Source of the DNA: Chloroflexota bacterium
Lineage (GTDB): Bacteria > Chloroflexota > Anaerolineae > Caldilineales > Caldilineaceae
Length of the DNA stretch: 42,966 bases
Assembly: GCA_026389895.1 (NCBI GenBank)
Contig: JAPLGZ010000835.1
Span: 1-42,966 of the forward strand
Direction: 5' to 3'
The notes beneath the pieces were generated by a model. The model searched no databases and was not told the DNA's origin. It saw nothing but the letters and a program-made list of their open reading frames with translations. The position numbers and the translations under genes are program-made. Within the stretch, counting starts at the first letter, position 1, and the number at the start of each line of letters is the position of its first letter. Positions 11,139 to 41,269 of this stretch are shown piece after piece.

Positions 11139-11209
11139 CCAGTTAAGGTAACCGTAGATCACGGAATTTGCTATAAAAGGATTGATTTTTGCGCCTTGTC
11201 GTTGCGAGG

Positions 11210-11262
11210 AAAGACCCAACCGCCCACCATTCGAAATGGTAGGCGGTTGGGTCTTTTTTAAT
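11210..11262. terminator. Strong terminator hairpin after the 1572-residue exported protein gene
   Basis: Arms at 11210-11231 and 11235-11256 pair over 22 bp with one C/A mismatch and a 3-base loop (CGA). The better T tract (TCTTTTTTAATTTT) follows on the plus strand; the minus strand has a weaker TCTTT. It lies 21 bp past the stop of the gene at 11283. Confidence 0.8.
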
Positions 11263-11282
11263 TTTCCCTGCAGGGGAGGGGT

Positions 11283-22339: not shown

Positions 22340-23224
22340 TTACGACTGAACTTTGAAAGGCATCATCATGCCTAATGCGGCATGTTCCTTGCCGCTGGCC
22401 GCGTCTGGCACATGACAGATGGCAATATAATCGCCCGCCGTCAAATTCAAGTGCAGATAACCGCTATCACCAGGCATCATCGCTTGCATGCCGCCGACGT
22501 TGCTAAAGGGTGGCGCCCCCACGGGTTGTTGCATCCAGGCCATTACATCCATCATCGTCTTACCCTCGGCCAGTTTGACCAGGGCCATCTCGTGCGGTTG
22601 TTTACTGGCCGCCGTAATTTTCCAGGTCTGTGCGCCCGGTTTGATCGTTGCCGGCAGCGCAAAGGAGAAATCGACGAGCTTGACCTCGGCATCAGCTTGC
22701 GGCTCGGTGGCGGTCTGATGGCTGTTGGCAGTGACCTCTAAGGGGGCGATCATGCCGTGGGCTAAATGGGGCATGCCTTTTTCGTCTGGCACCAGACAGA
22801 TTAAGAAATAGTGCCCCGGTTTCAGGTAGATGGTCGTTTCTTGGCTATTATTACTATCGACCACACCCGGCCCGCCTGGCATCGTAATCAGCGGCATGAC
22901 GGCCTCGATGCCCTTGGGCAGAGCCGCCTGAAATTGCGCGGCCGTCACATCGTCGTTTAGACGAACGAGTTGGGCGTGGTGGGGTTGTTTGCCTTCATTC
23001 TTAAACGCCACAGTCACCCAGCCGCCGGCAATTTCCTTAGGCGCCTCAAAGCTGTAATCTTTGGCAACGATGCCCAATACAACGGGCGCCACAGGGGCCG
23101 CGACGGCGGTTGGTGCGACAGGCACGCTGGGTGCAGTTGGCGCAAGACAGGCATTCAAGGTAAAAACGGTCAACGCGGTGGCGGCGGCCATGGCGAGATG
23201 TTGTTGAAAGGTTCGAGTAAACAT
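22340..23224 (-). CDS. Lipoprotein with two cupredoxin-like domains
   Basis: A 294-residue protein with a lipobox (FTLNAC, Cys about 26) and an Ala/Pro/Val linker. Two related domains follow. Domain 1 has KQPHHAQLVRL...HYFLICLVPDEKGMPHLAHGM; domain 2 has KQPHEMALVKL...DYIAICHVPD...KEHAALGMM. The His...Cys...His...Met spacing is that of type 1 copper sites, so each domain could hold a blue copper centre and carry electrons outside the membrane. The gene sits 172 bp downstream of a dihaem cytochrome c gene on the same strand, and both are preceded by the same 12-bp direct-repeat promoter, supporting a joint electron-transfer role (inference). MFTRTF start retained; no better start was seen. Confidence 0.82.
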   Translation of the reverse strand: MFTRTFQQHLAMAAATALTVFTLNACLAPTAPSVPVAPTAVAAPVAPVVLGIVAKDYSFEAPKEIAGGWVTVAFKNEGKQPHHAQLVRLNDDVTAAQFQAALPKGIEAVMPLITMPGGPGVVDSNNSQETTIYLKPGHYFLICLVPDEKGMPHLAHGMIAPLEVTANSHQTATEPQADAEVKLVDFSFALPATIKPGAQTWKITAASKQPHEMALVKLAEGKTMMDVMAWMQQPVGAPPFSNVGGMQAMMPGDSGYLHLNLTAGDYIAICHVPDAASGKEHAALGMMMPFKVQS

Positions 23225-23308: not shown

Positions 23309-23386
23309 TGGCTCTATTTCACCACGAATTTTTCGACCGTAACAGCAGCAAAACGGGACAAGTTTCGCGACAAAAAGTGATACAAA
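23309..23386 (-). promoter_or_regulatory. Direct-repeat promoter module, copy A (before the cupredoxin lipoprotein)
   Basis: Read on the minus strand: GTATC (23379-23383), GTCGC (23367-23371) and GTCCC (23355-23359), each 12 bp apart, then TTGCTGCTGTT, 19 bases, and the -10-like TGAAAT (23316-23321) followed by AGAGCCA. The expected transcript start is about 85 bp before the ATG. This is the most divergent of four copies (others at 24367, 34208, 37491). Confidence 0.65.
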
Positions 23387-23396
23387 CCCGGCATGG

Positions 23397-24311
23397 TTAC
23401 CGATTGCCATAGGTTTTGGCGGGCACGGTGCCAAGATAGAGCCATAAAGCGCGCAGCTCTTCATCCGTCATCACCTTGAACGCCTGCCAAGGCATCGCTG
23501 TCGAAAGCGTTGTGCCATCTGGCCGTTTGCCTTCGCGGATCGCCTGGAAGAAGTCTGCCTCAGTCCAGGAACCCAGCCCGGTGGCGACATCTGGCGTCAA
23601 ATTTCGTGGATAAGGTGGATCGGCTGGCATGCCGGGTATGGGGCCACCCGAAAGGCCCTGGCCATGACAGCCAGCACAGGTCTTAGCCAGATATTCACCA
23701 TAGGCCGCGGTTGCCCCTTTGGTCACCACTTGCGGGCGCGGGGCTGTGTGATTGATATGCTCGGCCGGCAGTACGGGCACTAATTCACCAACCAACAGGA
23801 TACGCCCCAAAGGGCCAACCTGGCGCGGCCGGGGTGCGCTATCGACGGGGGGCAAGGATTTGATATAGGCGACCAACGTGGCCAGATCATCGTCGCTGAT
23901 GGGATAGAATTCCTGGGACGGCATCACGATTAGTGGCTTACCATCGGGGGCAACACCGTGGCGAATCGAGCGTTCCCAATCGGCGGCGCGATACTGCTGG
24001 CCAATGCCGTTTTTGCCGGCCGTTAAATTGCTGGCAACAATCCGGCCTACCACTGGGTCGTCAATGACCGGCTTGCCAGCACCGTTGTCACCGTGGCAAT
24101 CGACACAACCGCGCGTCATAAATTGGCGTTTACCCTCCGCAATCACCGAGGTATCCGTGGGAATGGTCAATGCGACCGCTGGAATCGTGTAGCTTTTGTT
24201 CAGGCGCGCATTGCTCAGAACATAGACGATGATGAGGGCTAAGCAAATCAGGCCGAGCAAACTGCCCAGCACAAGGCCAATCCACTTAAAGAGCTTGCTT
24301 GTTCGCTTCAT
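23397..24311 (-). CDS. Membrane-anchored dihaem cytochrome c
   Basis: A 304-residue protein with one N-terminal membrane anchor (about 10-33) and two cytochrome c domains facing outward. The haem sites are CVDCH (69-73) and CAGCH (212-216). Candidate axial methionines lie in IVMPSQEF (about 130) and TAMPWQAF near the end, both followed by D/E-rich (S/T)D(D/E) and a 'L..L..Y(I/L)' helix as in class I cytochromes. It would pass electrons between membrane dehydrogenases and periplasmic or surface acceptors, possibly the cupredoxin lipoprotein encoded next. The start has AAAGGAT before ATG. The promoter is the direct-repeat module at 24367-24441. Confidence 0.9.
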   Translation of the reverse strand: MKRTSKLFKWIGLVLGSLLGLICLALIIVYVLSNARLNKSYTIPAVALTIPTDTSVIAEGKRQFMTRGCVDCHGDNGAGKPVIDDPVVGRIVASNLTAGKNGIGQQYRAADWERSIRHGVAPDGKPLIVMPSQEFYPISDDDLATLVAYIKSLPPVDSAPRPRQVGPLGRILLVGELVPVLPAEHINHTAPRPQVVTKGATAAYGEYLAKTCAGCHGQGLSGGPIPGMPADPPYPRNLTPDVATGLGSWTEADFFQAIREGKRPDGTTLSTAMPWQAFKVMTDEELRALWLYLGTVPAKTYGNR

Positions 24312-24366
24312 GATGCAGATCCTTTCTAAACCGTAGATTTCACTTACTTATTGGTTTGTTGCGCTG

Positions 24367-24441
24367 CCTTTATTCAATCAGAAATCACGGGGCGCGAACA
24401 GCAGCAAGCGCGACAGCAGCTGATACGCGCAGTGATACAAA
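24367..24441 (-). promoter_or_regulatory. Direct-repeat promoter module, copy B (before cytochrome c)
   Basis: On the minus strand: GTATC (24434-24438), GTATC (24422-24426) and GTCGC (24410-24414), exact 12-bp period, then GCTTGCTGCTGTT, 19 bases, and TTGAAT (24372-24377) followed by AAAGGCAG. The predicted start site is about 53 bp before the cytochrome ATG. The remainder of 24312-24613, towards the divergent gene at 24614, shows no gene and no clear plus-strand promoter. Confidence 0.72.
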
Positions 24442-24613
24442 TAGGTAGACGCGGTTTGCAAGCACCCTTTGGCCAGGATTTAATGGCGTCGAGGTTTGTC
24501 TATCCGGTGCGGAATGCATTCATGAAGGTTGCAGAATTGCTTTTTTTAGCGCAACTGCGTAACGTTATGTCAATAAAGCGTAATGAGTTAATCTTTATTG
24601 TAAGGTATGCACG

Positions 24614-26662
24614 ATGGGAATAAACGTGTCCATGATGAAAAGACAAATGCTGTTCCTCACTTTAATTGTCTGTTTACTAGCGCTAATCATCGACACGCGG
24701 CCAGCCCGCGCGGATGACGCGGTAGTGGGCGCGGGTACACCCGCCAGTTGCACCGAAGCGGCGCTAGACTATGCGCTGGCCCAGTTGAATCCAGGCGCGA
24801 CGACACCAGGTGGTTCGCTGACCTTCAACTGTGGTCCTAATCCCCACACCATTGTGCTCACCAGCCCAAAGGTGCTGAATGATGCAACCATGATTGATGG
24901 GGGAGATTTGATGAGCCTTTCTGGCGGCAGCACGACGCGGATCTTTGATATTGCCACCGGAGCCAGTGTCGAAATTCGCCAGCTCATCCTCCAGAATGGC
25001 TTTGCAGACGATGCCGGCGGGGCGATTCGTGTGGTGGGCGATCCTGCACCTGGCGCAAAACCCACCCTGTTACGCTTGCGCAGCGTCGATCTGGTTGACA
25101 ATGGCACAGGGACTTCTGGCGGCGCGCTGCGCGGCGAGGATGCAAATTTAGTGCTGCTTGATAGTACGGTTCGGCTGAACACGGCACTCGATGGTGGTGG
25201 TGGCGTCTCTTGGATTGGCGGCAGGATCGCGCTGACCAATACGATCATCGCCGATAACACGGCAACTTTAGGCGGCGGCATGGAGATCTGGCATGCCGTT
25301 ATCGATCTTCAACAGACCACGTTTCGGTCTAATACGGCAACCAGCGCCAACACGGGTCTAGACAATTTTGGCGATGGGGGTGGGTTATTCTTAAAAGAGA
25401 GCGGCGGCGCCATTCATCAGAGTTGGTTTTATGACAATTCGGCGCTGTGGGGTGGCGGGTTGATGATTCAAGCTGGGTTTGTGGGTTTGACGGAGAGCAA
25501 CATCTCTTATAACAACAGCCAAAGTTATGGCGGTGGTTTGGCAGTTTCGGACGCCGTTGACCCGATCAGCCAAATGAAGGTGACGCTGCGCAACACCCTT
25601 GTCCAGCAGAATACGGCGGGAAGCGGCGGTGGCATTTTTAGCTATGCGGGCAGTATCAGCCTCTACGACTCTTGGGTGTTGGAAAATAAAGCGTTGAATA
25701 ACGGAGGGGGTCTGTTTAGCTTTTATACGCGGATAGGCAGCACGTACTGGCCTTCTTATGTTTATGGTTCGCGGACAATTTTTTACAATAATCAAGCGAA
25801 TGACGACGGTGGCGGCATTTACAATACAGGCAGTCTAAGCCTGGTGAACACGTTGCTGCAAGCCAATAAGGCTGGGCAAAACGGTGGCGGCCTTGCGATG
25901 ACCAGCAGCCCGGATTTCCCAACCGCGGGCGCCAGCCTTGTTTACAATACTTTTGCGAGCAATCAAGCCGCCGTGGGTGGCGCCATTTATAATGCGGGAC
26001 TCCAGCATACCACCTTAAAAAGTGACCGCAGCTTGTATATGAATAACGCACCAGATAGCTGCGCCGGGCTGTTCAACACATCCACAGGTTACAACTTGAC
26101 CAACGACGCAAGCTGTAGTGATTCGTTTACCAACCAAACCGACGCCAACCAGCTTGTCTTACCCCTCGTCGAGCAAATGTATCGGCATCAATTGCAGGCT
26201 GGTTCATCAGTGTTCGAATTCCCCGTACAATGGCCGGCCCCAGACAGTCCAGCCATCAATCGAGTCCCCGCAGCCGAATGCAAGCTGGATCACGACCTAT
26301 TTTCCCAGCCCCGCCCCATTGCGACAAACTGTGATGTCGGTGCCATGGAACGCACGATCAGTGGTAAGCTATCGCAGACGATCAACTTCGCAGCGCTTGG
26401 CAACAGGACCCTGAGCGACGCCCCATTCAAGGTCAATGCGACAGCTTCATCGGGCCTGACAGTCACCTTCACCACGACGACGCCGACTGTTTGTACACTG
26501 CTAGAGAGAACGGTGACAGCAATGGCGACAGGTCTTTGCACGATCATCGCCAGCCAAGCGGGCGACGCGACCTATGAGCCTGCCGCAGAAGTGGCGCAAA
26601 GTTTCCAGATCACAGCGCAGCGCGAGCAGGCGGTCTATCTACCGTTCATTCAGCACGAGTAG
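24614..26662 (+). CDS. Secreted beta-helix (polymorphic outer-membrane-like) protein with Ig-like C-terminal domain
   Basis: A 682-residue exported protein. The signal peptide is MKRQMLFLTLIVCLLALIIDTRPARA. A parallel beta-helix follows with many GGG(I/L)..(Y/S)..(G)SISL and N(N/T)(T/S)A..GGG rungs (about 50-540), as in the pectate-lyase-like and chlamydial-type repeats. After RPIATNCDVGAMERT comes a bacterial Ig-like domain (QTINFAALGNRTLSDAPF...CTIIASQAGDATYEPA), and the chain ends VYLPFIQHE, a variant of the terminal motif found in neighbouring exported proteins. The frame starts at ATG 24614 (weak AAGGT site); ATG 24632 or 24635 would also leave an intact signal peptide. It is the first plus-strand gene and is divergent from the cytochrome gene. 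Confidence 0.85.
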   Translation: MGINVSMMKRQMLFLTLIVCLLALIIDTRPARADDAVVGAGTPASCTEAALDYALAQLNPGATTPGGSLTFNCGPNPHTIVLTSPKVLNDATMIDGGDLMSLSGGSTTRIFDIATGASVEIRQLILQNGFADDAGGAIRVVGDPAPGAKPTLLRLRSVDLVDNGTGTSGGALRGEDANLVLLDSTVRLNTALDGGGGVSWIGGRIALTNTIIADNTATLGGGMEIWHAVIDLQQTTFRSNTATSANTGLDNFGDGGGLFLKESGGAIHQSWFYDNSALWGGGLMIQAGFVGLTESNISYNNSQSYGGGLAVSDAVDPISQMKVTLRNTLVQQNTAGSGGGIFSYAGSISLYDSWVLENKALNNGGGLFSFYTRIGSTYWPSYVYGSRTIFYNNQANDDGGGIYNTGSLSLVNTLLQANKAGQNGGGLAMTSSPDFPTAGASLVYNTFASNQAAVGGAIYNAGLQHTTLKSDRSLYMNNAPDSCAGLFNTSTGYNLTNDASCSDSFTNQTDANQLVLPLVEQMYRHQLQAGSSVFEFPVQWPAPDSPAINRVPAAECKLDHDLFSQPRPIATNCDVGAMERTISGKLSQTINFAALGNRTLSDAPFKVNATASSGLTVTFTTTTPTVCTLLERTVTAMATGLCTIIASQAGDATYEPAAEVAQSFQITAQREQAVYLPFIQHE

Positions 26663-26689
26663 GAATAACTATCATAGATTGAGTTTCGC

Positions 26690-26823
26690 GCAGCAAAGAG
26701 GAACGCCGAGGAATATAGGTGTTTTGCCAACGGTTATGGCCTTAAGGTAAAAGACTTTATTCGCCTAATTGCGTTGCAAAACGCGCGCGGCTCAACTATA
26801 ATAAGATCGCCGACGCGCTTGGG
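26690..26823 (+). pseudogene. Decayed helix-turn-helix 5' end of the STAND gene
   Basis: The neighbouring paralogue begins with TATCATAGATT before its start, then encodes an XRE domain ending ...FEGGKRRPSRALAEHIA. Here the same TATCATAGATT occurs at about 26672, followed by CGCAGCAAAGAGGA, which matches the paralogue's CGCAGCGAACAGGA. The frame then breaks: LPTVMALR (cf. TPTLRSFE) is in one phase, and GKR...ARLNYNKIADALGV continues in the ATPase phase after a TAA. The segment is about 24 bases shorter than in the paralogue. This is best read as a deleted and frameshifted DNA-binding domain. The alignment is by eye. Confidence 0.45.
26774..26802 (+). promoter_or_regulatory. Sigma-70-like promoter inside the decayed HTH region
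   Basis: TTGCAA (26774-26779) and TATAAT (26797-26802) are separated by exactly 17 bases, placing a start site about 15 bases before the GTG at 26824. It could drive a transcript with almost no leader for the HTH-less ATPase. Confidence 0.5.
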
Positions 26824-29130
26824 GTGGCTGCGAATCAACGGGCCGAGTTTTTGCGGCTGGCGCGTCTACCCCTAGAAACAACGCCAGAGGCAGTGCTTGA
26901 AGACAAATTGCCCCACGCGCCCCCAACGCCGCGCCCCGAAAACCAAGAAATTGTCCGCCGGCCACCGCTTGCCCAAGCGATGAATGCGCTCATCGGGCGC
27001 GAAGCCGAGCGCAACATCTTATTGCGCTTACTCGGTGAGGATCGCCATCGCTTGGTCACTGTGCTCGGCGCCGGCGGCAGTGGCAAGACGCGGCTCGCCC
27101 AACAGATCGCCTTCGACATGCAAACGCAATTTCGAGATGGCGCCGCCTTTGTATCTTTGACATCGGTGGCCGAAGGGCGCCATCTGCCCATGAGCATTGC
27201 AGAGGCGCTCGGTCTCCCACTGCCTCAGGGCATTAATGCCCAGGATCGTCTGCTGCAACTATTGGCCGAGCGTCAGTTGCTGCTCGTGCTCGACAATTTT
27301 GAACATCTGCTTGTCTCTGCGACGCCAGAAGATGATACACTCGCCTTGCTGCAAGCGGTGTTACGCGGCGCGCCGGGTCTACAATTGCTGATCACTTCAC
27401 GCGAGCGTTTGCGCATTCTGAGTGAACGCACCTTCGAGTTGGCGGGGCTATCCACCCCGCGCCAGGCCGCTAGTATCGAACAATCGGATGCTGTGATGCT
27501 CTTTATTGAGCGCGCCCAACAGGTAACCGGCCACTTTAGTCTGACCCCCGCCAATCGCGAGGCGATTGCCCGCATCTGCAATTTGCTCGAAGGCATTCCC
27601 CTGGCGCTTGAGTTGGCGGCGGCTTGGGTGCGGGTGCTCACTTGCGAAGAGATTGCGGATGAAATTCAGCGTAATATCGATTTTCTGGCCCTGGCCGATC
27701 GCGATACTGCACCACGCCATCGCAGTATGCGGGCCGTCTTCGACCATTCCTGGGCGCTGCTAGATGAAAAAGAGCGGGATGTGTTGATGAAGCTGGCCAT
27801 TTTTCAAGGAGGCTGTCGCCGCGATGCCGCCGAAGCCGTGGCCGGGGCCACGTTGCCAGTGCTAGCCTCGCTGATCGACAAATCGCTCTTACGCCGAACC
27901 ACCAATGGGCGCTATGATCTGCATGAGTTGATCCGCCAATATGCCCAGGTGCACCTGGTGCAAACGGGTCAGCTCGCCGCGGTGCAACAGCGACACGCCC
28001 AGACTTTTCTAAACTATGCCGAAGGGGTGGAAAGACGTTTTTACAGTGCAGAATGCCGGCGTCTACGCGATCAGCTGGAACCGGATATCGACAACTTTCG
28101 CAGTGCGTTTGAGTGGGGCTTAAGCAGTGAGGGGCTGGCGACGATGCCCGATTTGGCCTTGCGCCTGGCCACCACATTACCTCGTTTCTGGTATGTATTG
28201 CCCAATTGGCGCGAAGGCAAACAATGGTTACAGCGGGCGTTGGCGCATAGCCAGAACCTATCACCAGCCATGCAGGCGCGCATCCAACTAGGGTTTGGGA
28301 TCTTTGAACATGCTTGGAGCCACTATTCGGTCGCGCTAAAACATTTTGAAGCAGCCAAACCACTCTTCGAACAACGGACAGACCCGAGGTATAGCGCTTG
28401 GATCTATAATCAAACCGCCCAATGTTATTTTGCCGTGGGGCGGCTCGATGAAGCCGACGCCGCAACCCAAGAGAGCCTGGCGCGGTTTCGGAGCGTCGGC
28501 GACAAGTGGACCACGGGCGTTGCGACCTGGCTGCTCGGTTGCATCGCCAAGGCCAGGCAGGATTATGCGGGGGCGTTGACACTCGCGCAGGAATGCCTAA
28601 ACATTTTTCGCAGTTTAGATGATAGCGATTGTATGGTGCTGGCGCTCAACTTACAAGGCGAATTGGCGCTGTTGCAAAATGATTTTGTCCAAGCCGAACG
28701 CCACTATCGCGCCAGCCTAACGTTATGCGAAAAAACCAATAACCAACATGGCAAGGCCTGGGTCGACTTTGAATTGGGTGAGACCATGCTGGGTCAAGGG
28801 CAGATGGACCAGGCCGTCGTCTTCTTTTGTGCAGCCTTGGCCTTTCGTCTGGCCATTGGCGATCAGGAAACAGCGTGTACGGCCTTCCAAGGATTGGCTG
28901 TGGCTGCCGCCCAATCTGGCCAGACAAAACTAGCAGCCCGCCTATTCAGCGCGGCGACCCGCAGCACTCGCGGTGATGGATTTTTCTTGATGCGCACGCT
29001 TGAACCATTATACCAGGCCAGTCGCACGCAAACCCAAACGGCGCTCAACGACCAAACCTGGGCAGCCGAATGGACAGCCGGCCAATTAATCCCAGCGAAG
29101 GAATTGTTAGAAGCAGCCGCGGCAATGTAG
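26824..29130 (+). CDS. NB-ARC/TPR STAND ATPase lacking its DNA-binding domain
   Basis: A 768-residue protein starting with GTG. It opens with NQRAEFLRLARLPLE, which in its two paralogues lies just after the XRE helix-turn-helix, so the DNA-binding part is missing. It keeps the sensor motif ALIGREAERNILLRLL, Walker A GAGGSGKTR (about 82-90), Walker B LLLVLDNFEHLL, the ITSRERLR motif, LPLALELAAAWVRVL, and the winged-helix/MHD-like end (YDLHELIRQYAQ). A TPR array follows to the C-terminus. STAND proteins switch between ADP and ATP forms upon ligand binding to the repeats. Without the HTH it could work through protein contacts or be a decaying copy. The next two STAND genes are close paralogues. 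Confidence 0.83.
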   Translation: MAANQRAEFLRLARLPLETTPEAVLEDKLPHAPPTPRPENQEIVRRPPLAQAMNALIGREAERNILLRLLGEDRHRLVTVLGAGGSGKTRLAQQIAFDMQTQFRDGAAFVSLTSVAEGRHLPMSIAEALGLPLPQGINAQDRLLQLLAERQLLLVLDNFEHLLVSATPEDDTLALLQAVLRGAPGLQLLITSRERLRILSERTFELAGLSTPRQAASIEQSDAVMLFIERAQQVTGHFSLTPANREAIARICNLLEGIPLALELAAAWVRVLTCEEIADEIQRNIDFLALADRDTAPRHRSMRAVFDHSWALLDEKERDVLMKLAIFQGGCRRDAAEAVAGATLPVLASLIDKSLLRRTTNGRYDLHELIRQYAQVHLVQTGQLAAVQQRHAQTFLNYAEGVERRFYSAECRRLRDQLEPDIDNFRSAFEWGLSSEGLATMPDLALRLATTLPRFWYVLPNWREGKQWLQRALAHSQNLSPAMQARIQLGFGIFEHAWSHYSVALKHFEAAKPLFEQRTDPRYSAWIYNQTAQCYFAVGRLDEADAATQESLARFRSVGDKWTTGVATWLLGCIAKARQDYAGALTLAQECLNIFRSLDDSDCMVLALNLQGELALLQNDFVQAERHYRASLTLCEKTNNQHGKAWVDFELGETMLGQGQMDQAVVFFCAALAFRLAIGDQETACTAFQGLAVAAAQSGQTKLAARLFSAATRSTRGDGFFLMRTLEPLYQASRTQTQTALNDQTWAAEWTAGQLIPAKELLEAAAAM

Positions 29131-29144
29131 GAGACAGGGAGTTA

Positions 29145-29189
29145 GGGAGACAGGGGGACAGGGAAGCTCTCCTTGTCCCCCTGTCTCCC
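29145..29189. terminator. Hairpin after the HTH-less STAND gene
   Basis: GGGAGACAGGGGGACA (29145-29160) pairs perfectly with TGTCCCCCTGTCTCCC (29174-29189), 16 bp. It begins 15 bp past the stop codon. Confidence 0.65.
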
Positions 29190-29375
29190 GCTCTACTCCA
29201 ATGGCAACGCCATCATCGGCCAAATCCAGAGCGCCGTATTTGTGTAATCTCCCCGTGTGAAACAGATCCATATTTCTCCCCAGAATTTTGGTGCAAAATG
29301 ACCAGGCGGTGAAAAACGCGCCCAATGGGCTCCCGCTGGTACAGCAAGTCCGCTGATGGTATGTACCCGATAAAT

Positions 29376-29444
29376 GGTAACGGAACAGCCAACCTGCTTT
29401 GCGCCTAACGGGCACCCGCCCTTGGGCGCAAAGCGGCTGTTACC
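29376..29444. repeat. Composite inverted-repeat element upstream of the second STAND gene
   Basis: GGTAAC-gga-ACAGCC (29376-29390) pairs, around a 3-base bulge, with GGCTGTTACC (29435-29444). Inside, GCTTTGCGCC (29396-29405) pairs perfectly with GGCGCAAAGC (29425-29434). It lies in the 29131-29522 gap together with TTGACT at 29481 (a possible -35, no good -10 at the right distance). No gene was found in the gap. Confidence 0.5.
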
Positions 29445-29522
29445 AAACCAGCAAACATGAGCTAGGAAAATTGTTGATTGTTGACTATAATTATCGCTGG
29501 TTATCATAGATTAGGGGGATGC

Positions 29523-32387
29523 ATGCAACCACTCACTTTTGGCCAGTGGCTCAAACGCCTGCGCAGCGAACAGGATTTGACCCAAGAGATGTTGGCAGAG
29601 AAGATCGGCTGTGCCACACCCACCCTGCGTTCTTTTGAAGGGGGTAAACGCCGCCCCTCCCGGGCGTTGGCCGAACACATTGCCATTATCTTGCAGGTGC
29701 CCGTAGAACAACAGGCGGAATTTCTGCGCTTGGCGCGGCTACCTTTGGAATCGCCATCTAATCGGGAGGAGGCCGCCGATGATCACACACCGGCGCCAGT
29801 TGTCAAAGCCGTGGTGCAGCAGCCCCGTTTGCCCCAAGCCATCAACGCGCTGATTGGCCGCGAAGCCGAAGGCAATGTCCTGCTCCGCTTACTCCGGGAA
29901 GATCGCTGTCGTTTGGTGACCATTGTCGGCGCGGGCGGCATGGGGAAGACGCGTCTGGCGCTTGATTGCGCCAACGCATTAACCACCCATTTTGCCGATG
30001 GCGCGGGTTTTGTGGCGCTGGCTGCGCTCGACCAAGCCCACCAACTGCCCATTGCGGTCGCCCACGCCCTCAACCTAGAGTTGCAAGGCACGCGCGATCC
30101 AGGGGAACAGGTGATCCGGGCACTGGCACAGCGAAATCTGTTGCTGGTGCTCGATAACTTTGAACATCTGCTCAGCTTTCCTGAAGCAGTGGCGTGGGTA
30201 AAGGCGCTGGTCGAACGTGCGCCAGGTGTGCAGCTGTTGATCACCTCGCGCGAACGGCTCCGTGTGCGCGAGGAACATAGCTTTGTCTTGAGCGGACTCG
30301 CGCTACCCACCAGTTCGCTGGTGGCAGAACAGTCTGATGCCGTGCTACTTTTTCTGGCACGCGCCCAACAAGCCACCGGCGATTTTAAGCTAGACGAGCA
30401 GAATAAGCCCGCAATCATCCGCATTTGTGAACTAGTGGACGGGATGCCCTTGGCGCTTGAACTGGCCGCAGCTTGGGTGCGGGTGCTCAGTTGTGACGAA
30501 ATTGCCGACGAAATTCAACGCAGCAGTGATTTTCTGGCCCTGGCCAATCGCGATATGACGCCGCGCCATCGCAGCATGCGGGCGGTCTTTGATTATTCCT
30601 GGGGCTTGCTGACCGCACAAGAACGCCAGGTGATGGTGCAGTTGACCGTCTTTCGTGGCGGCTGCCGGCGCGAGGCAGCGCAAGCCGTCGCCCAGGCCAG
30701 TTTGCCCGTGCTTGCCGCGCTGATCGATAAATCGCTGATACGGCGTCTCGCAGATCCCGACCAACAAGGGCGCTATGATCTGCATGAATTGACGCGCCAA
30801 TATGTGGCGCAACGTCTGGCCGAAGACCCGACGCAGCAACAGGCGGTGCAACGCCGCCACTGTGATTTTTATGCTCGCTTTGTCGAGGAACAGCAAGCCG
30901 AGTTTGCCGGGCCAACGCAGATGGCGGCGTTGGCGCGCATCGAGCAGGAATTCGATAATATCCGCGCCGCTTGGACGCTGGCGTTTGAACAGCCACGCCT
31001 TGAACCTTTATTAAAGATGGTTAATGGCCTGGGTGACGCGCTCTACTGGCAGGATCGGTATCACGAGGGCGTAGCGCTCTTTCAAGCAGCAACCGTTCAG
31101 CTTGCGCGGCAAAACGAACAGGCGCCAGCGCTTGACTTGCAATGTGCGCTCTGTCAAACACGCACTTGGCTGGGCTGTTTTCTGACACAAGTGGGCAACG
31201 TGACCGAGATCCACGCGCTCTTTGACGAGGTGCTCGCCCAACTCAGCAATCTGGCGACGGTGGGTTATGATGTGCGCGCCAGCCAAGCGCGGGCCTACAA
31301 CCATTATGCGTATGTCCATGTCGCGTTCTTTGGTGACTATCACAAAGCCTATACCCTTCACGCGCAAAGCATCGACCTCTATCGCCAACTGGGCAACCAA
31401 CATGAACTCGCCAGGATGCTGACGCGCCAAAGTCGCACGCTCCATTTTCTGGGGCGCTATAACGAATCGATCAATTTGGCGCAAGAAGCGATCAGCATTA
31501 GCCAGCGCCAGCAAGATCAACTGATCCTGGTAGGCGCGGTCGAAGGGTTGGCCCTCAGTTTAGCCTATTTGGGGAGATTCAGTGCGGCAGAACCTTATTT
31601 TCGCACGGCGTTGGCGGCAGCAGAAGCCACCCAGCAACGGGGCAAAATGGCGGGCGTCTGCCTCAATTTAGGCGTTTCTCTGACCTTTGCAGGGCAGTTT
31701 CATGAAGGTCAACACGCCTGGGAACGGGCTTTGGCGATCAGCGTCGAATTAGGTGAACGTAATTATGTGGCCCATGTGACGATTTTGCTAGGCTTTTCGG
31801 CCTTGCACTTGGGCCACGATGCACAGGCTGTTGAGCTAGCCCACCAGGCCATTGGCAAGGCCGACGAGGTGCAATTTGTGCGCGGTGTGGCATTGGCCAA
31901 AATTCTCCTGGGCAGCGCCCAATTGGCCCAGGGCAAACTGGCCGAGGCCCGCACAACTTTGGCACAAGCCATTCAGAGTTACCAAGCGATTTCACATCCC
32001 GATGAACTGGGGTGGGCGCTGGCAATCCAGGCCTATGTGCTGCGGGCGCTGGGGTTACAAAGCGAGGCCCAAAAAGTTGCAACCGAAGCGATTCAATATA
32101 CACGCAAGGCTGAGTCGTTTATCGCGGTTTATTCATTGCTCCCCCTGTTGGCGCTTATGCTCTTTGAACAAGAGCAGATTGAGCTTGCCACCACCACCCT
32201 CAGCACAGCCTGGCAAAGTGCCTTTGTACGGCATTCGCTTTGGTTCACCAAGGTGATTGGCATGGAACTCGAGGCAAAACGACGAACACTGCCAGCCGCC
32301 AGCCGGGCCCATCTGGCCGCGCAAACCGTTATCCGTGATCCACAAAACGGCATAGAGATCCTCAAACGGATTGCCTTGCTCACCTAG
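29523..32387 (+). CDS. XRE-family HTH / NB-ARC / TPR STAND regulator
   Basis: A 954-residue regulator. Residues 1-65 form an XRE helix-turn-helix (FGQWLKRLRSEQDLTQEMLAEKIGCATPTLRSFEGGKR). NB-ARC follows with Walker A GAGGMGKTR (about 136-144), Walker B LLLVLDNFEHLL, ITSRERLR, the MPLALELAAAWVRVL motif and YDLHELTRQYVAQ. About 500 residues of TPR repeats (e.g. YLGRFSAAEPYFRTALAAAEATQQRG) make the ligand or partner sensor. Such proteins are probably ATP-switched transcription factors; inducer and targets are unknown. ATG at 29523 is chosen because GGGGG lies 4 bases upstream and the domain starts there; a longer frame begins at 29478. It is the longest of three paralogues in this window and converges with the secreted protein gene at 32475. 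Confidence 0.9.
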   Translation: MQPLTFGQWLKRLRSEQDLTQEMLAEKIGCATPTLRSFEGGKRRPSRALAEHIAIILQVPVEQQAEFLRLARLPLESPSNREEAADDHTPAPVVKAVVQQPRLPQAINALIGREAEGNVLLRLLREDRCRLVTIVGAGGMGKTRLALDCANALTTHFADGAGFVALAALDQAHQLPIAVAHALNLELQGTRDPGEQVIRALAQRNLLLVLDNFEHLLSFPEAVAWVKALVERAPGVQLLITSRERLRVREEHSFVLSGLALPTSSLVAEQSDAVLLFLARAQQATGDFKLDEQNKPAIIRICELVDGMPLALELAAAWVRVLSCDEIADEIQRSSDFLALANRDMTPRHRSMRAVFDYSWGLLTAQERQVMVQLTVFRGGCRREAAQAVAQASLPVLAALIDKSLIRRLADPDQQGRYDLHELTRQYVAQRLAEDPTQQQAVQRRHCDFYARFVEEQQAEFAGPTQMAALARIEQEFDNIRAAWTLAFEQPRLEPLLKMVNGLGDALYWQDRYHEGVALFQAATVQLARQNEQAPALDLQCALCQTRTWLGCFLTQVGNVTEIHALFDEVLAQLSNLATVGYDVRASQARAYNHYAYVHVAFFGDYHKAYTLHAQSIDLYRQLGNQHELARMLTRQSRTLHFLGRYNESINLAQEAISISQRQQDQLILVGAVEGLALSLAYLGRFSAAEPYFRTALAAAEATQQRGKMAGVCLNLGVSLTFAGQFHEGQHAWERALAISVELGERNYVAHVTILLGFSALHLGHDAQAVELAHQAIGKADEVQFVRGVALAKILLGSAQLAQGKLAEARTTLAQAIQSYQAISHPDELGWALAIQAYVLRALGLQSEAQKVATEAIQYTRKAESFIAVYSLLPLLALMLFEQEQIELATTTLSTAWQSAFVRHSLWFTKVIGMELEAKRRTLPAASRAHLAAQTVIRDPQNGIEILKRIALLT

Positions 32388-32410
32388 GTGCAACAGCAAT
32401 GTCACGATGA

Positions 32411-32446
32411 AGAGGCCCCGTGGATTATCAAATCCACGGGGCCTCT
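32411..32446. terminator. Bidirectional terminator between convergent genes
   Basis: AGAGGCCCCGTGGATT (32411-32426) and its perfect complement (32431-32446) surround a 4-base loop. It lies 24 bp past the stop of the plus-strand STAND gene and 29 bp past the stop of the minus-strand gene at 32475. Confidence 0.8.
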
Positions 32447-32474
32447 GCGTTTGTTAAAGCGAAAGCTGCAAATT

Positions 32475-34127
32475 TTACGGCAGGGCAAAGACAATGGCGC
32501 GCACCGCACGGATGATCAGGTGAAAGGCGGAGACCGGCGGCTGACCATCGCTGGGGTCATCATAAAGACAATGGGCATGATAGGTCGTGTCATAGGCCAC
32601 ATGCGGTTGGTCCGCGCCATCTAGGGCCAGGATGGGGGTGAGACCATGCCATAAACCACCATCACAATGGGGCGGAATCGCGACCGGCCAAACGGACTGC
32701 AACAGCTCGGCGGATTCAATCGTCTTGTTATGATAGGTCGGGTTGTCCGTTTCACAATCTGCGCTGCACCAGACATAACCCAGCCCACCATTCGTGGTAT
32801 CGACATAGGCCATGTGCGGTCGCCCCTGGGTGTCCAGTTCCAGATCCGGATGTTTGCCATCGGGTGTCGGGACGCCTGGTTCATTATAAGACCACTGCTC
32901 GCCCAGTTTGGTCGCATCAAAACAATTCTCATTGCACCAGAGATAAAAGAGTTTCTCACCGGCCAGTTGGGCTTGCCCTTTGTAGAAGGCGACGCGCGGG
33001 CGATCTTGGCTGTCTAGTTCCAGATCCCAAGAGGGATTTGTACCGGCGCCACGGTCGATCAGGTAAATCCGCTGCCAATTCTCCCGTTGATCACAGGCGT
33101 TATCACAGCCAAAGTAGAAAAGACCCGCTGATTGGCCGCTCTGATTGGTCGGATAGAAATTGGCGATAAAACGCGGTCCACCCTGGCTGGTAAAGGTAAG
33201 TGAAGGATAGTCGACAATCTCATATTCATATTGAAAGCCACCCCGATATTCATCGGTGATGCGGGTGCGCGCCCAAGTTGGGTTGTCGGGCGTGCCCGCC
33301 GTACAATCGGTGTCACAACTGGCATAGTAAGCACCATACAGATCCGGCTCGGCATGCGAATAGTTGCGATCCTGAAAGATCAGGCGCGGACGATCTTGTG
33401 GATCAAGGGCAAAGGAATGCTGCGGCGCATTGTCGTCGTAGACATCAAAGATATCGGTGCCGTCGGTTGTCGCCACATAGCCCACCTGCCAACTGTTGGC
33501 ATCAACGCAATTCTGATCACAGGCCGCATAGAGATAATCTTTGGCGCCAGCATAAACCGTCGAGGCGGCGCGAATCAACAGGCGCGGTTGGCCGGCTTGG
33601 GTGAGTGCGAGTTGCACTTCGAGCACGTCGCGATCTTGCACCAGATTCACCCGTTGCCACGCTTCACTCTTTTCACAAGCGGTGGCGCAATAGGCATAGA
33701 CGGCCCAGTTCGGCGCGTTGTCGTGCATCCCTTCGTAATAATAATAGCCCACATGCATGCCGCCGTTTTTGTCCACCTTCATGCTGGCGCTACTCGTGCG
33801 CCACTGGGTTTCCAAGAAAAGCCCCGTGTTGGTCGGCTCAGCCGTTGGGGCATCCGTGGGGCTGGCGGTAGGGGTTGGTTGATTCGGTTGTGTCGTAGCC
33901 GTGGCGGTAGGTTGATCTGGCCGCGTTGTGGCCGTCGCGGTGGACGATGCTGGCGGCCGTCCTGCTTCACCGTTCGTAATCAGGGGCAGAAAGATATGCT
34001 GGTTGGCAAGCGGCATTTGTGCGGGCTCCGCCTGTGCCATAGCGGCGCCGGTTCGCCAGATGCCGATCAACAAACTAATAAAGAGTAGACCCGCCGTCAC
34101 TTTGCGCAGGTACGATTGGTGGTTCAT
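32475..34127 (-). CDS. Secreted protein with N-terminal FLPL motif, Thr/Pro linker and Cys-rich repeat domain
   Basis: A 550-residue exported protein. After the signal peptide (LRKVTAGLLFISLLIGIWRTGAAMAQA region) comes HIFLPLITNG, the motif that ends other surface proteins here but placed N-terminally. A Thr/Pro/Ala-rich linker (about 55-100, e.g. TATATTRPDQPTATATTQ) follows. The rest is a propeller-like array of repeats about 55-65 residues long, each with a C(D/N)..C pair (YAYCATACEK, YAACDQNCVD, YASCDTDCTA, YFGCDNACDQ, YLWCNENCFD, YVWCSADCET) and (D/L)(S/T)(Q)(G/D)RP(R/H) turns. The paired cysteines suggest a disulfide in each blade. The gene is preceded by the direct-repeat promoter module C. 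I do not recognise a family. Confidence 0.82.
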   Translation of the reverse strand: MNHQSYLRKVTAGLLFISLLIGIWRTGAAMAQAEPAQMPLANQHIFLPLITNGEAGRPPASSTATATTRPDQPTATATTQPNQPTPTASPTDAPTAEPTNTGLFLETQWRTSSASMKVDKNGGMHVGYYYYEGMHDNAPNWAVYAYCATACEKSEAWQRVNLVQDRDVLEVQLALTQAGQPRLLIRAASTVYAGAKDYLYAACDQNCVDANSWQVGYVATTDGTDIFDVYDDNAPQHSFALDPQDRPRLIFQDRNYSHAEPDLYGAYYASCDTDCTAGTPDNPTWARTRITDEYRGGFQYEYEIVDYPSLTFTSQGGPRFIANFYPTNQSGQSAGLFYFGCDNACDQRENWQRIYLIDRGAGTNPSWDLELDSQDRPRVAFYKGQAQLAGEKLFYLWCNENCFDATKLGEQWSYNEPGVPTPDGKHPDLELDTQGRPHMAYVDTTNGGLGYVWCSADCETDNPTYHNKTIESAELLQSVWPVAIPPHCDGGLWHGLTPILALDGADQPHVAYDTTYHAHCLYDDPSDGQPPVSAFHLIIRAVRAIVFALP

Positions 34128-34207
34128 GAGGACTCCTTGTTGAATGCAATCCTGATTAAATTTACGCTAGGTTTTCTAGCTTTATTCCAAAATTTGTTGG
34201 CATAACT

Positions 34208-34284
34208 TGGCTCTATTTAACCAGCCATTGGGCGGCATCAACAGAAGCAAGCGCGACATGACCTGATACAAGCAGCTATACAAA
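34208..34284 (-). promoter_or_regulatory. Direct-repeat promoter module, copy C (before the Cys-rich secreted protein)
   Basis: Minus strand: GTATA (34277-34281), GTATC (34265-34269) and GTCGC (34253-34257) at exact 12-bp steps, then GCTTGCTTCTGTT, 19 bases, and TTAAAT (34215-34220) followed by AGAGCCA. The predicted start is about 80 bp before the ATG at 34127. It lies in the divergent gap shared with the STAND regulator at 34393. Confidence 0.72.
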
Positions 34285-34314
34285 TTGAGCAGCAAGGCAA
34301 CCAATTTCACAAGG

Positions 34315-34343
34315 TTGCGCAAGTCGGTGCAATTCGCTATAGT
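34315..34343 (+). promoter_or_regulatory. Sigma-70-like promoter of the third STAND regulator
   Basis: TTGCGC (34315-34320) and TATAGT (34338-34343) are spaced by 17 bases, about 50 bp before the ATG at 34393. It is divergent from the module C promoter, so a regulator bound at the direct repeats could affect both genes. Confidence 0.5.
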
Positions 34344-34392
34344 GTGAATAGAAGAGCGAGTGGGTAGGAGATCTGAAGCAATGGGAGAATCA

Positions 34393-36711
34393 ATGACCTT
34401 TGTACAGTGGCTTAAGCGTTTGCGCGCCGAACAAGATTTGACGCAAGAGATGCTAGCGGAGAAGGTGGGCTGCGCCACGCCGACGTTGCGATCGTTTGAG
34501 ATCGGCAAGCGCCGGCCGTCGCGCGAGATGGCCGAGCGCCTCGCCGATGTCTTAGGCGTCCCTGGCGAGCAACGGGCGGAATTTCTACGTTTGGCCCGGT
34601 TGCCGGTAGAGGCACAACCCGATCTAACGGAAGCTCATCACACGGAACTGGCGTCTGCAGCTGTGCGCCAGACCAGCCAGCTTCCCTTGCCCAAGACGGC
34701 CAAAACCTTGATCGGGCGCGAAGCCGAACGAAATGTATTGATACAGCTGTTACACGACGAGCACTGCCGGCTGGTGACAGTGCTGGGCGCGGGCGGCATG
34801 GGCAAGACCCAATTAGCACTCGACGTTGCCCACGCTTTGGCCCCGCACTTCCCAGAGGGGGCCGTCTTTGTCGCGCTGGCACCGATCCAGACGGCGCAAC
34901 ACTTGCCCAGCGCCGTGATCGAAGCGTTAGGGCTTGCTTTGTTAGGGGCCAGCGATCCCAATGCCCAACTACTTGCCTGGCTGGAAAAACGCCAGATCTT
35001 GCTTGTGCTCGATAACTTTGAACATTTATTGGGGGATGCGAATGCGGTTGCTTGGATTGCCGAACTATTGCATGGCGCGCCCGCGCTGCAACTGCTGATC
35101 ACCTCGCGCGAACGGCTACGCCTGCGCGGCGAACGCACCTTCGACTTAGGCGGCCTGACCCTGCCAGGCGCCATGCTACCGCCGGAACAGGCCGATGCGG
35201 TGCTGCTCTTTCTGGAACGGGCGCGCCAGGTGACCGGGGATTTTGCCCTCGACACCCAAAACAGATTGGTGATTGGGCGCATTTGTCAATTGCTGGGCGG
35301 CATGCCACTTGGCATTGAATTGGCAGCGGCCTGGGTGCGTGTATTAGAACCGGCCGAAATCGCCAGCGAGATTGAAAAGAACATGGATTTCCTGGCGTTG
35401 GCCGACCGCGATGCGTTGCCCCGCCATCGCAGCATGCGGGCGGTCTTTGATCATTCGTGGCGCTTGCTCAGCGACGAAGAGCGCGCCGTATTGATGAAGT
35501 TGGCGGTCTTTCGCGGTGGCTCTCTGCGCGAGGCGGCGGAAGCGGTCGCCCAGGCCACGTTGCCGGTATTGGCCAGTTTAATTGACAAATCGCTGGTGCG
35601 CCGGCTGGATGATCGACGCTTCGATTTACATGAGCTGATTCGTCAATTTGCCGCCCAACAATTGGCGGAGCGAGCAGAGACGCAGGTCACGAAGGATCGC
35701 CATCTGGCCTACTTTCGCCAATTTGCGCTGAAAGCCGAGGAGGGCATGAACCAGGCGGACCAGGCAACGTGGCTGGCGCGAGTGGAACGCGAACAGGATA
35801 ATCTGCGCGCCGCATTGGCTTGGGCCTTCGAGGAAGGGGCGGCGATGCCACAACGCGTGGCGCAAGGGTTGACGTTGGTCGCCGCCCTCTATCGTTTTTG
35901 GCAGGGCCGGGGCTATCTGACAGAAGGTCGCCAATGGATGGAACGGGGGCTGGCGCAAGGGCAAGGCGTAGCCCCAGCAACCATCGCCCACACCTTGAAT
36001 ATGCTGGGCTGGTTGGCCCACCAACAGGGTGAGTCGCACTACGCGCATCGTTTGCTCGAACAGAGCCTGGCCCTCTTCCGCCAACTGAACGACGAGCCTG
36101 GGCTGGCGGAGGTATTAGATACATTGGGCGATCTAACTTGGGGTCAGGGTGATCTGGGGCGTGGCGTGGCCTATTATGAGGAAAGCCTGGCCCTGCGGCG
36201 TCGGCTGGGCCAACCAGGCTCTGTAGCCATGTCACTGTATAGCTTGGGGCGACTTTATGTGGATCACAACGAGAATCAGGCCGCGGCCACTTGCTTTGCC
36301 GAGGCCATGACCATTCTCGAAGCCGTTCATGATCGGCGCGGGCTGGCGCTGACCATTAATGGGTTGGGACGCCTGGCCCTGAATGAACAAGCCTACACTC
36401 TGGCTGGGGAACACTTCCGCCGCGCTTTAGATTTATTTCATCAATTGGGCAATAAAGTTGATATTGCCGAATGTTTTGAAGAGCTGGCCCTGGTGGCCCA
36501 CGCAGCCGGCCAGCCCCAACGCGCCGCGACACTTTGGGCCGCGGGCGAGGCCCTGCGCCAAGAGATTAACATTCATGCCTTACGCTACAACCAGGTGCTG
36601 GCCGCCCCCATGCTGGCGCAAATCGATGCGCCAACCATCGCCGCCGGGCGGGCTGCGGCCCGCCAATGCAGCCTTGATGTAGCCGTAGCCTATGCCTTGG
36701 GGACAACATGA
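34393..36711 (+). CDS. XRE-family HTH / NB-ARC / TPR STAND regulator
   Basis: A 772-residue paralogue of the previous two. It has an XRE helix-turn-helix (FVQWLKRLRAEQDLTQEMLAEKVG, about 3-26, through about 65), NB-ARC with Walker A GAGGMGKTQ (about 132-140), Walker B ILLVLDNFEHLL, ITSRERLR, MPLGIELAAAWVRVL and FDLHELIRQFAAQ, then about 330 residues of TPR repeats (e.g. DLGRGVAYYEESLALRRRLGQPG). ATG at 34393 has GGGAG five bases upstream and places the HTH at the very N-terminus; ATG at 34381 would add MGES. The promoter at 34315 is divergent from the secreted protein gene, making this STAND protein a candidate regulator of it (inference). The next gene is convergent. Confidence 0.9.
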   Translation: MTFVQWLKRLRAEQDLTQEMLAEKVGCATPTLRSFEIGKRRPSREMAERLADVLGVPGEQRAEFLRLARLPVEAQPDLTEAHHTELASAAVRQTSQLPLPKTAKTLIGREAERNVLIQLLHDEHCRLVTVLGAGGMGKTQLALDVAHALAPHFPEGAVFVALAPIQTAQHLPSAVIEALGLALLGASDPNAQLLAWLEKRQILLVLDNFEHLLGDANAVAWIAELLHGAPALQLLITSRERLRLRGERTFDLGGLTLPGAMLPPEQADAVLLFLERARQVTGDFALDTQNRLVIGRICQLLGGMPLGIELAAAWVRVLEPAEIASEIEKNMDFLALADRDALPRHRSMRAVFDHSWRLLSDEERAVLMKLAVFRGGSLREAAEAVAQATLPVLASLIDKSLVRRLDDRRFDLHELIRQFAAQQLAERAETQVTKDRHLAYFRQFALKAEEGMNQADQATWLARVEREQDNLRAALAWAFEEGAAMPQRVAQGLTLVAALYRFWQGRGYLTEGRQWMERGLAQGQGVAPATIAHTLNMLGWLAHQQGESHYAHRLLEQSLALFRQLNDEPGLAEVLDTLGDLTWGQGDLGRGVAYYEESLALRRRLGQPGSVAMSLYSLGRLYVDHNENQAAATCFAEAMTILEAVHDRRGLALTINGLGRLALNEQAYTLAGEHFRRALDLFHQLGNKVDIAECFEELALVAHAAGQPQRAATLWAAGEALRQEINIHALRYNQVLAAPMLAQIDAPTIAAGRAAARQCSLDVAVAYALGTT

Positions 36712-36733
36712 CGGGTGTAGGGTCCGCCATCTT

Positions 36734-37231
36734 CTACGCAGGCGCGCGATGGGCCTCGGCTGGCCCAACCGGCGGGGCAAATTGATCATGTTTTGCCGCA
36801 ATCGCCAGCATCTGTTCGAGGTCGAACGGGGCCGTCGCAAAAGTGGCCGCGAGTTCGATAAAGCAGGCTTCAAAACCGCCGGGGCTAAAAAAATTGAGCA
36901 ACGTGACCGGCGCGGAGGTTGGATTCCACAGATGATGCACAGTGCGAGGCGGCGCCAACACAAAACCACCGCGCGTGACGGTAAAAGTTTGCTCTTCCAG
37001 CGTGAAGGCCAGGGTCCCATTGAGCACGTAAAAAGTTTCTGTCGTCTGGGCGTGCCAATGGGGCGCGCCATAGCGGAAGTGCGGCGGCAGGGTGATTTCG
37101 ATCAGGCTGAAACTGCCGTTGGTGTCAGCAGCCCCGGCCTTGATCGCCCCAATGGCGCCAAAGAGCGACCATGTCTTAAGATGATCAGACGAGTAGTCAG
37201 TGAAATTTGCGGTGTTGTGCAGCATCGTCAT
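36734..37231 (-). CDS. Cupin-domain protein (quercetin 2,3-dioxygenase-like)
   Basis: A 165-residue protein with one cupin fold. The first motif APHWHAQTTETFYVLNG supplies two His and one Glu; the second, PPRTVHHLWN, supplies the remaining His. These would hold a metal such as Fe, Mn or Ni. Proteins of this size are often annotated as cupin or quercetin dioxygenase-like; the substrate cannot be told. AAGGAG precedes the ATG at 37229-37231. It ends 22 bp from the end of the convergent STAND gene. Upstream are two palindromes (37284, 37448) and the direct-repeat module D. Confidence 0.85.
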   Translation of the reverse strand: MTMLHNTANFTDYSSDHLKTWSLFGAIGAIKAGAADTNGSFSLIEITLPPHFRYGAPHWHAQTTETFYVLNGTLAFTLEEQTFTVTRGGFVLAPPRTVHHLWNPTSAPVTLLNFFSPGGFEACFIELAATFATAPFDLEQMLAIAAKHDQFAPPVGPAEAHRAPA

Positions 37232-37283
37232 GTTGATTCTCCTTCGTTATCGAGCGTTGCGGCCCCAGGATCGCAACGAATTT

Positions 37284-37321
37284 CATGAATTGCCCGAACC
37301 AGGTGCCTCGCGCAATTCATG
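37284..37321. promoter_or_regulatory. Inverted repeat upstream of the cupin gene
   Basis: CATGAATTGC (37284-37293) pairs perfectly with GCAATTCATG (37312-37321) across 18 bases. At 53-90 bp before the cupin ATG it could be an operator or a leader hairpin. Confidence 0.4.
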
Positions 37322-37447
37322 GGGGTGACCGTTGGGTATCTTGTAAAATTTTCTGATTCAAAAAGCCAATCTATTGCGCCGTGGCCAATCATTCACTTTG
37401 CTGCTGCGTAGCAAGCAAGCTAGGCAGCGGTTATTCACGAGCAATCC

Positions 37448-37465
37448 ATCATTCATGTGAATGAT
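37448..37465. promoter_or_regulatory. Palindrome ATCATTCA-TG-TGAATGAT upstream of the cupin gene
   Basis: A perfect 8-bp palindrome with a 2-base centre. Its ATTCA/TGAAT half sites resemble those of the TetR operator at 39625, so it may be a weaker site for that repressor or for a relative. Confidence 0.35.
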
Positions 37466-37490
37466 CCACCACGGACGATTTAGTTTTATC

Positions 37491-37567
37491 TGGCTTTATT
37501 AAATCAGAGATCATCAAACGTTAACAGAAGCAAGCGCGACAGAGGTTAATACAAAGAGCGATACAAA
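37491..37567 (-). promoter_or_regulatory. Direct-repeat promoter module, copy D (before the cupin gene)
   Basis: Minus strand: GTATC (37560-37564), GTATT (37548-37552) and GTCGC (37536-37540) with exact 12-bp steps, then GCTTGCTTCTGTT, 19 bases, and TTTAAT (37498-37503) followed by AAAGCCAG. The next minus-strand gene is the cupin, which would have a leader of about 260 bases containing both palindromes. Confidence 0.68.
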
Positions 37568-37586: not shown

Positions 37587-37678
37587 CTAGCGACCCGCCA
37601 CTTTGGTGTGGACCATCATAATGGTCAGCCAACGGTGCAGGTTTCAACCCTGCGACTGGAAAAGTGGCGGGTCGCTAG
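37587..37678. repeat. Composite inverted-repeat element with two inner hairpins
   Basis: CTAGCGACCCGCCACTTT (37587-37604) and its perfect complement (37661-37678) enclose two more hairpins: GACCAT-cata-ATGGTC (37611-37626) and GCAGG...CCTGC around TTTCAAC (about 37637-37653). This gives a cloverleaf-like fold. It lies 52 bp past the stop of the P450 gene, so it may terminate that operon or be a dispersed element. Confidence 0.6.
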
Positions 37679-40818: not shown

Positions 40819-40917
40819 TGATTCTCTTACGCTGGATCATGGCGGGTTAATGAGGAAGATCGGGTTGCGTTTGTATAGGCGGTGGCAATAGCGACCAGGC
40901 AAACAGCGCATTGAGGA

Positions 40918-41262: not shown

Positions 41263-41269
41263 AAATTGC

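Follow-up and report, generated by a model that had tools for sequence, protein, structure and literature searches.

STAND proteins are related to the immune receptors of animals and plants. The ADP-bound STAND monomer is inactive, and inducer together with ATP opens its NOD, which assembles head-to-tail. Some large bacterial genomes have dozens of STANDs, most of them without a known target. MalT of E. coli carries a C-terminal LuxR-type HTH, its inducer is maltotriose and the arrangement of its boxes is unlike the 12-bp array described here. The binding site of GutR of Bacillus subtilis is described as an imperfect inverted repeat. With inducer and ATP, MalT forms multimers that bind repeated boxes cooperatively at target promoters (PMC4381067). 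According to its citation in PMC10936776, GutR, composed of an HTH, a nucleotide-binding domain and repeats, is an inducer- and ATP-dependent activator. AfsR has two repeats 11 bp apart that overlap the -35/-10 spacer, the 3' repeat lying 8 bp from the -10 (PMC10936776). The operator of PimR in Streptomyces consists of three direct repeats with an 11-bp step; it lies in the region divergent to the target, on the upstream side of the -35, and is bound cooperatively with one monomer per repeat (PMC5930380).

The window analysed here, a stretch of 42,966 nucleotides, is one contig (C509) of an 8.77 Mb genome in 908 contigs (G000), probably of the Chloroflexota to judge by its genes and by some named matches. 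The window contains four modules of about 77 bp (Table 1), which agree over 41-43 columns, with no such agreement expected by chance. The repeat half alone matches four times in the window against 0.16 expected, and the TTGCTKCTGTT-N19-TKNAATARAGSCA half alone also four times, against 0.00 expected. A sequence-only reading had described four minus-strand modules at these places, each with three repeats at 12-bp steps and each ahead of a minus-strand gene (for a cupredoxin lipoprotein, a dihaem cytochrome c, a Cys-rich secreted protein and a cupin). All of this is confirmed, except that module 2 ends at 24365 and not at 24367. The cupin start lies 260 bp from its module and the other targets lie at 54-115 bp. 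The cupredoxin-like product of module 1 has no significant match among solved structures.

Table 1. Modules, their target genes and the STAND genes of the window
Feature	Position	Strand	Repeats 1, 2, 3	Block after repeats	-10-like hexamer	Following motif	Remarks
Module 1	23309..23386	-	23386-23375, 23374-23363, 23362-23351	TGCTGCTGTT 23350-23341	TGAAAT 23321-23316	AGAGCCA 23315-23309	19-bp spacer 23340-23322, last bases TGG
Module 2	24365..24441	-	24441-24430, 24429-24418, 24417-24406	GCTGCTGTT 24405-24397	TTGAAT 24377-24372	AAAGGCA 24371-24365	
Module 3	34208..34284	-	34284-34273, 34272-34261, 34260-34249	GCTTCTGTT 34248-34240	TTAAAT 34220-34215		within divergent promoter region of STAND gene 34360-36711
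Module 4	37491..37567	-	37567-37556, 37555-37544, 37543-37532	GCTTCTGTT 37531-37523	TTTAAT 37503-37498	AAAGCCA 37497-37491	
Module 1 target	22340..23224	-					secreted lipoprotein-like, two cupredoxin-like halves; no Pfam match
Module 2 target	23397..24311	-					membrane-anchored dihaem cytochrome c; two Cytochrom_C domains
Module 3 target	32475..34127	-					secreted Cys-rich repeat protein
Module 4 target	36734..37231	-					cupin (Cupin_2)
Candidate regulator	34360..36711	+					HTH_31/XRE - NB-ARC/NACHT - TPR STAND, between modules 3 and 4
Second candidate regulator	29478..32387	+					tandem STAND paralogue, 56% identity, recognition helix almost identical
Third tandem STAND paralogue	26824..29130	+					N-terminal HTH missing

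Two other features of the window were noticed. An 18-bp perfect inverted repeat, CTAGCGACCCGCCACTTT, seen by eye at 37587-37604 and 37661-37678 (about 56 bp apart), lies just upstream of module 4 and may be a hairpin or terminator that follows the P450 gene. Consecutive genes for uricase, HIU hydrolase and OHCU decarboxylase (39970-41803) make up a urate-to-allantoin pathway beside the P450 gene and a TetR regulator.

A model built from the sequences of the four window copies only (R1) was searched across the rest of the genome. Beyond the window it gave three strong matches, on C297 (E-value = 9.8e-13), C30 (7.5e-11) and C471 (2.5e-10), and a weak one on C459 (E-value = 0.016) that aligns over the whole length. 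The C297 copy is followed by a co-oriented gene for a large secreted protein, the C30 copy by one for a sigma factor of the ECF type, the C471 copy by one for a secreted protein that has a Rot1-like match in Pfam, and the C459 copy by one for a paralogue of the Cys-rich protein of module 3 (40% identity). Four more weak matches (C805, C565, C579 and C14) aligned poorly and were set aside as chance. With a pattern of the repeats only, matches in this genome beyond the module copies were not above the reversed-pattern control. All eight copies are intergenic, each with a co-oriented gene 54-260 bp downstream of it. By eye, a signal sequence or a membrane anchor is recognisable in most target products, though not in the cupin or the sigma factor. 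One control sequence is common to the four window genes and to at least three or four genes elsewhere in the genome. With an ECF sigma-factor gene among its targets, the regulon may include a second tier. The ECF-type gene under the C30 copy (L034, 10512-11312) has no obvious adjacent anti-sigma gene.

The alignment of the eight copies resolves the module into two parts. Units 1 and 2 of the array are TTGTATC-like and unit 3 is TGTCGC-like; the first repeat reads TTGTAT in seven of the eight copies and TTGTAA in the other. The following CTGTT is invariant, and its distance to the hexamer is 19 in every copy. The spacer between them had been called fixed in length and unconserved. The former holds and the latter does not, since TG at three and two bases before the hexamer is invariant in all eight copies and an AT inside the spacer is nearly so. 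Likewise, the fixed spacing claimed for the module applies to CTGTT-N19-hexamer but not to the gap that separates CTGTT from the third repeat, which is 1 bp longer in two of the eight copies (module 1 and C30). The constant spacing on one side and the 1-bp drift on the other suggest a core promoter plus an upstream array for which a shift by 1 bp is tolerable. The hexamer reads T[TG]nA[AC]T, in its extended form TGn-T[T/G]nA[A/C]T, and its second position is never A, which is unusual for a promoter of the main sigma factor. As in activator-dependent extended -10 promoters, TGn directly precedes the hexamer and no good -35 is found at 16-18 bp, the CTGTTn at 18 bp being a poor match to TTGACA. 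These features suggest a core promoter composed of a poor -35 (CTGTTn), an 18-bp spacer and an extended -10. No inverted repeat within the array is consistent across the module copies.

The STAND gene that modules 3 and 4 flank probably starts with the ATG at 34381 and encodes a Walker A motif, GAGGMGKT. Its product matches NACHT, AAA_22, TPR_12 and HTH_31 above the Pfam cut-offs and NB-ARC just below (22.7 vs 23.5 bits), and its NOD region aligns to the AfsR structures 8k60/8jke. A SARP domain (Trans_reg_C + BTAD) is absent by Pfam from this protein and from its relatives in the genomes G004, G022 and G003, which have HTH_31/HTH_3 only. XRE-type HTHs usually bind palindromes. No convincing array was seen in the own divergent region of the 29478-32387 paralogue. 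In the third paralogue the in-frame remnant begins after the helix region (IADALGVAANQRAEFLRLARLP); its product is possibly a modulator or a decaying copy, and could still co-assemble with the HTH-bearing paralogues. The module-linked STANDs of G004 and G022 and the relative in G003 all combine HTH_31, NB-ARC/NACHT and TPR, and a tree of the HTH and NTPase regions unites the three window STANDs with G022:C28, G004:C484 and G003:C411 in one clade (support 1.0). Four of the eight module copies, on short contigs, are not near a STAND gene. A search for a plasmid with a STAND gene gave no match.

The strict R1 model had no strong match in 60 relatives; among the 61 genomes searched, the strict sequence occurs in its own genome only. 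Footprinting of homologous genes was therefore required, and this revealed diverged versions in another genus. In G004 (same family, other genus) drifted modules stand upstream of homologues of the Cys-rich secreted protein, with the three 12-bp steps kept and a 39-bp distance to the -10. A second model (R2; ten sequences, no protein information used) found two further modules in G004 and one in G022, a third genus (E-value = 5.8e-7, 1.5e-3 and 9.7e-6, respectively). At G004:C484 an HTH-STAND gene has a module on either side, of which one belongs to the gene for the secreted protein and one to a cupin-cupredoxin operon. At G004:C259 and G022:C28 the module lies between its target, a cupin gene in G022, and a divergent HTH-STAND gene. 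The window is arranged alike, with the STAND gene 34360-36711 between two modules. The module at G004:C595 has no STAND gene in the 9.5 kb read, which indicates that unlinked targets exist in G004 too. The identity of the module-bearing homologues is 38-47% for the secreted protein, 43% for the cupin (window vs G004) and 52% for the cupredoxin protein (22340..23224 vs the G004 module cluster). In the G004:C484 operon (L132) the cupredoxin lipoprotein gene is present twice, near tandem (10648-11544 and 12118-13014).

With four copies falling within 14 kb, the modules might be taken for a mobile or dispersed repeat. This is hardly conceivable given the rest of the pattern: conserved blocks surround a variable spacer of fixed length while the flanks are not conserved, and the half-sites drift between genera with the spacing retained. 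The sequence-only reading, which favoured a promoter, had named copies inside genes or in random orientation as the observation that would speak against it. In fact all 13 copies in the three genomes (eight here, five in the two relatives) are intergenic and ahead of co-oriented genes. This orientation, together with conservation of the module at orthologous genes of G004 and G022, is the pattern of a co-regulated regulon.

The array also recurs at STANDs of the same HTH class. For a family set of 39 STANDs, three-fold repeats at lags 7-17 in the divergent upstream regions were scored relative to dinucleotide-shuffled sequences. Lag 12 reached p<=0.05 at 12 of the 19 STANDs with the HTH type of 34360-36711, vs 2 of the 20 other STANDs (Fisher 0.0007). 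Other lags were mostly near expectation, the next being lags 8 and 14 (5/19 each). An array with a -10 at the expected distance was present at 11 of the 19 in-family STANDs of the HTH_31-type class. In an independent class-wide set of 32 STANDs found with an HTH profile, seven had array and -10 at p<=0.05 (binomial 0.0009), against none of 11 XRE controls. A second STAND HTH type gave 0/9, and a third gave two matches, closely similar to each other and resembling coding DNA. Lag 11 was as frequent as lag 12 in the class-wide set (7/32), so that the step there may be 11-12 bp. Full modules occur in other families, e.g. at G151:C258, G047:C12 and G047:C78. In most, read by eye, 38-39 bp separate the start of the last repeat from the hexamer; at G014:C35 (50) and G005:C39b (27) this distance is shifted by about one step. 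The extended -10 is lacking at G016:C297, and many STANDs of the class are without a detectable array. The divergent region of G005:C39 (L141), upstream of a cupin-like gene, has a 14-bp step (TTTTGTGCCGCATA/TTTTGTACCGCATA/TTTTGTGC), which might reflect another assembly geometry. The earlier proposal that the STANDs nearby are candidate regulators is thus strengthened twice, by modules that flank related HTH-STAND genes in two other genera and by the enrichment of 12-bp arrays at this HTH class.

Half-sites differ between regulators: TTGTATC in G000, TTGTAGCAC in G022, G004:C484 and G016, and CTATCAC in G047. The half-site TGTATGG belongs to two STANDs of different genera, G030 and G004:C186, with the common helix CAEVTIQKIE. 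These two loci (L195, G030:C294; L167, G004:C186), with the same recognition helix and the same half-site TGTATGGC, are a natural pair for the study of helix-site specificity. When 43 HTH columns were scanned against the presence of a TAT core, two recognition-helix columns, 30 and 28, covaried with it; the max-corrected p values, 0.0017 and 0.0047 respectively, are uncorrected for relatedness and concern a trait chosen after inspecting sites picked by eye, which partly follows one clade. Overall, similarity of recognition helix and similarity of half-site showed no significant correlation (Mantel r 0.10, p 0.15).

Could the STAND genes merely accompany the targets of an unlinked regulator that binds the repeats? 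Half of the copies here are unlinked to STAND genes, and the non-significant overall helix-site correlation agrees with such a reading. We consider it unlikely, as 12-bp arrays are enriched at HTH_31-type STANDs in many families where the divergent genes are unrelated, are absent at most STANDs with other HTH types (2/20 in the family set), and covary with recognition-helix columns. It is also rather improbable that the module is the promoter of the C30 ECF sigma factor, with that factor reading CTGTT-N19-TTTAAT at its own gene and the repeats being accessory. The sigma gene does lie directly 3' of a strong copy, ECF genes are commonly autoregulated, and a -10 never A at the second position would suit it. 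However, a PWM scan that scored the STAND-linked loci found no module upstream of the ECF homologues in relatives. The modules of G004, of G022 and of genomes beyond these neighbour STAND genes (G004:C595 having none in the 9.5 kb read), and none neighbours an ECF gene; at STANDs of other families the -10 and the array recur with other half-sites.

We think it probable, on the strength of these comparisons, that the modules are activator-dependent promoters driven by an HTH_31-NB-ARC-TPR STAND acting on the 12-bp direct repeats. The regulator would be the 34360-36711 STAND, possibly together with its paralogue 29478-32387. Its TPR domain would sense an inducer, whereupon the protein would exchange ADP for ATP and oligomerise head-to-tail; such an assembly would give direct repeats. 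The oligomer would set three HTH domains on the three repeats at 12-bp steps, at about -76 to -46 relative to the presumed transcription start, and would recruit RNA polymerase to a promoter whose -35 is poor (CTGTTn) and whose -10 is of the extended form (TGn-T[T/G]nA[A/C]T). The predicted regulon consists mostly of genes for exported or redox proteins and also includes one gene for an ECF sigma factor. Direct binding, activation as opposed to repression, the oligomer geometry, the transcription start and the inducer are all inferred here. That the STAND binds the repeats as a repressor, or that the array mainly autoregulates the divergent STAND gene, would fit its place in the common intergenic region 34127-34360 and at several relatives' loci. 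We give this little credence: most of the eight copies have no STAND start next to them, the array, with its fixed distance of 38-39 bp upstream of the -10 and a poor -35, occupies the usual place of an activator, and MalT, GutR, AfsR and PimR are all activators (PMC4381067, PMC10936776, PMC5930380).

An activating STAND of this kind might be one member of a large, so far undescribed class of regulators, frequent in the taxonomic class of the host bacteria, that reads a common grammar: three direct half-sites in steps of 12 bp, of which the last lies 38-39 bp away from an extended -10, with letters set by recognition-helix residues. We regard this generalisation as evenly poised. If it is true, the operators and regulons of hundreds of uncharacterised STANDs would be predictable from sequence, and a rule leading from HTH class to operator to targets would give each such STAND testable target genes. 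The 12-bp step would then reflect the geometry of the active oligomer: with three of its HTHs fixed on DNA at that step, the architecture of an active STAND complex would leave a readable footprint.

The sequence-only reading had likened the repeats to sites for SARP/OmpR-type activators. As a statement of membership this is not supported: the HTH is HTH_31/XRE and not SARP/BTAD, the step is 12 and not 11 bp, and the array lies about 38 bp from the -10 and not 8. SARP sites have an 11- or 22-bp step with the 3' repeat 8 bp from the -10 (PMC10936776), a spacing that the module does not show. AfsR shares with the candidate the order of N-terminal DBD, NOD and TPR, the direct repeats and the poor -35 (PMC10936776), but its DBD is of the SARP type with BTAD. 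MalT is likewise a STAND activator with a TPR-like sensor (PMC4381067), and GutR differs in serving one sugar operon. In operator design there is a close likeness to PimR and the SARP-LAL regulators, large ATP-binding proteins with three direct repeats that lie in the region common with the target and do not overlap the -35 (PMC5930380). PimR has a SARP domain, an 11-bp step, CGGCAAG heptamers and one target, whereas the system described here has an HTH_31/XRE domain, a 12-bp step, TTGTATC half-sites, at least seven or eight targets and Chloroflexota-like hosts. No 12-bp HTH-STAND operator and no Chloroflexi STAND regulators were found in the openly accessible literature. By analogy, the module fits the PimR/AfsR/MalT mode, but with a different DNA-binding domain and with steps of 12 bp. 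STAND activators that use direct repeats are a known kind; new, within the reach of the checks made, are the HTH_31 class, the step and position of the array, and how widely such systems appear to be spread.
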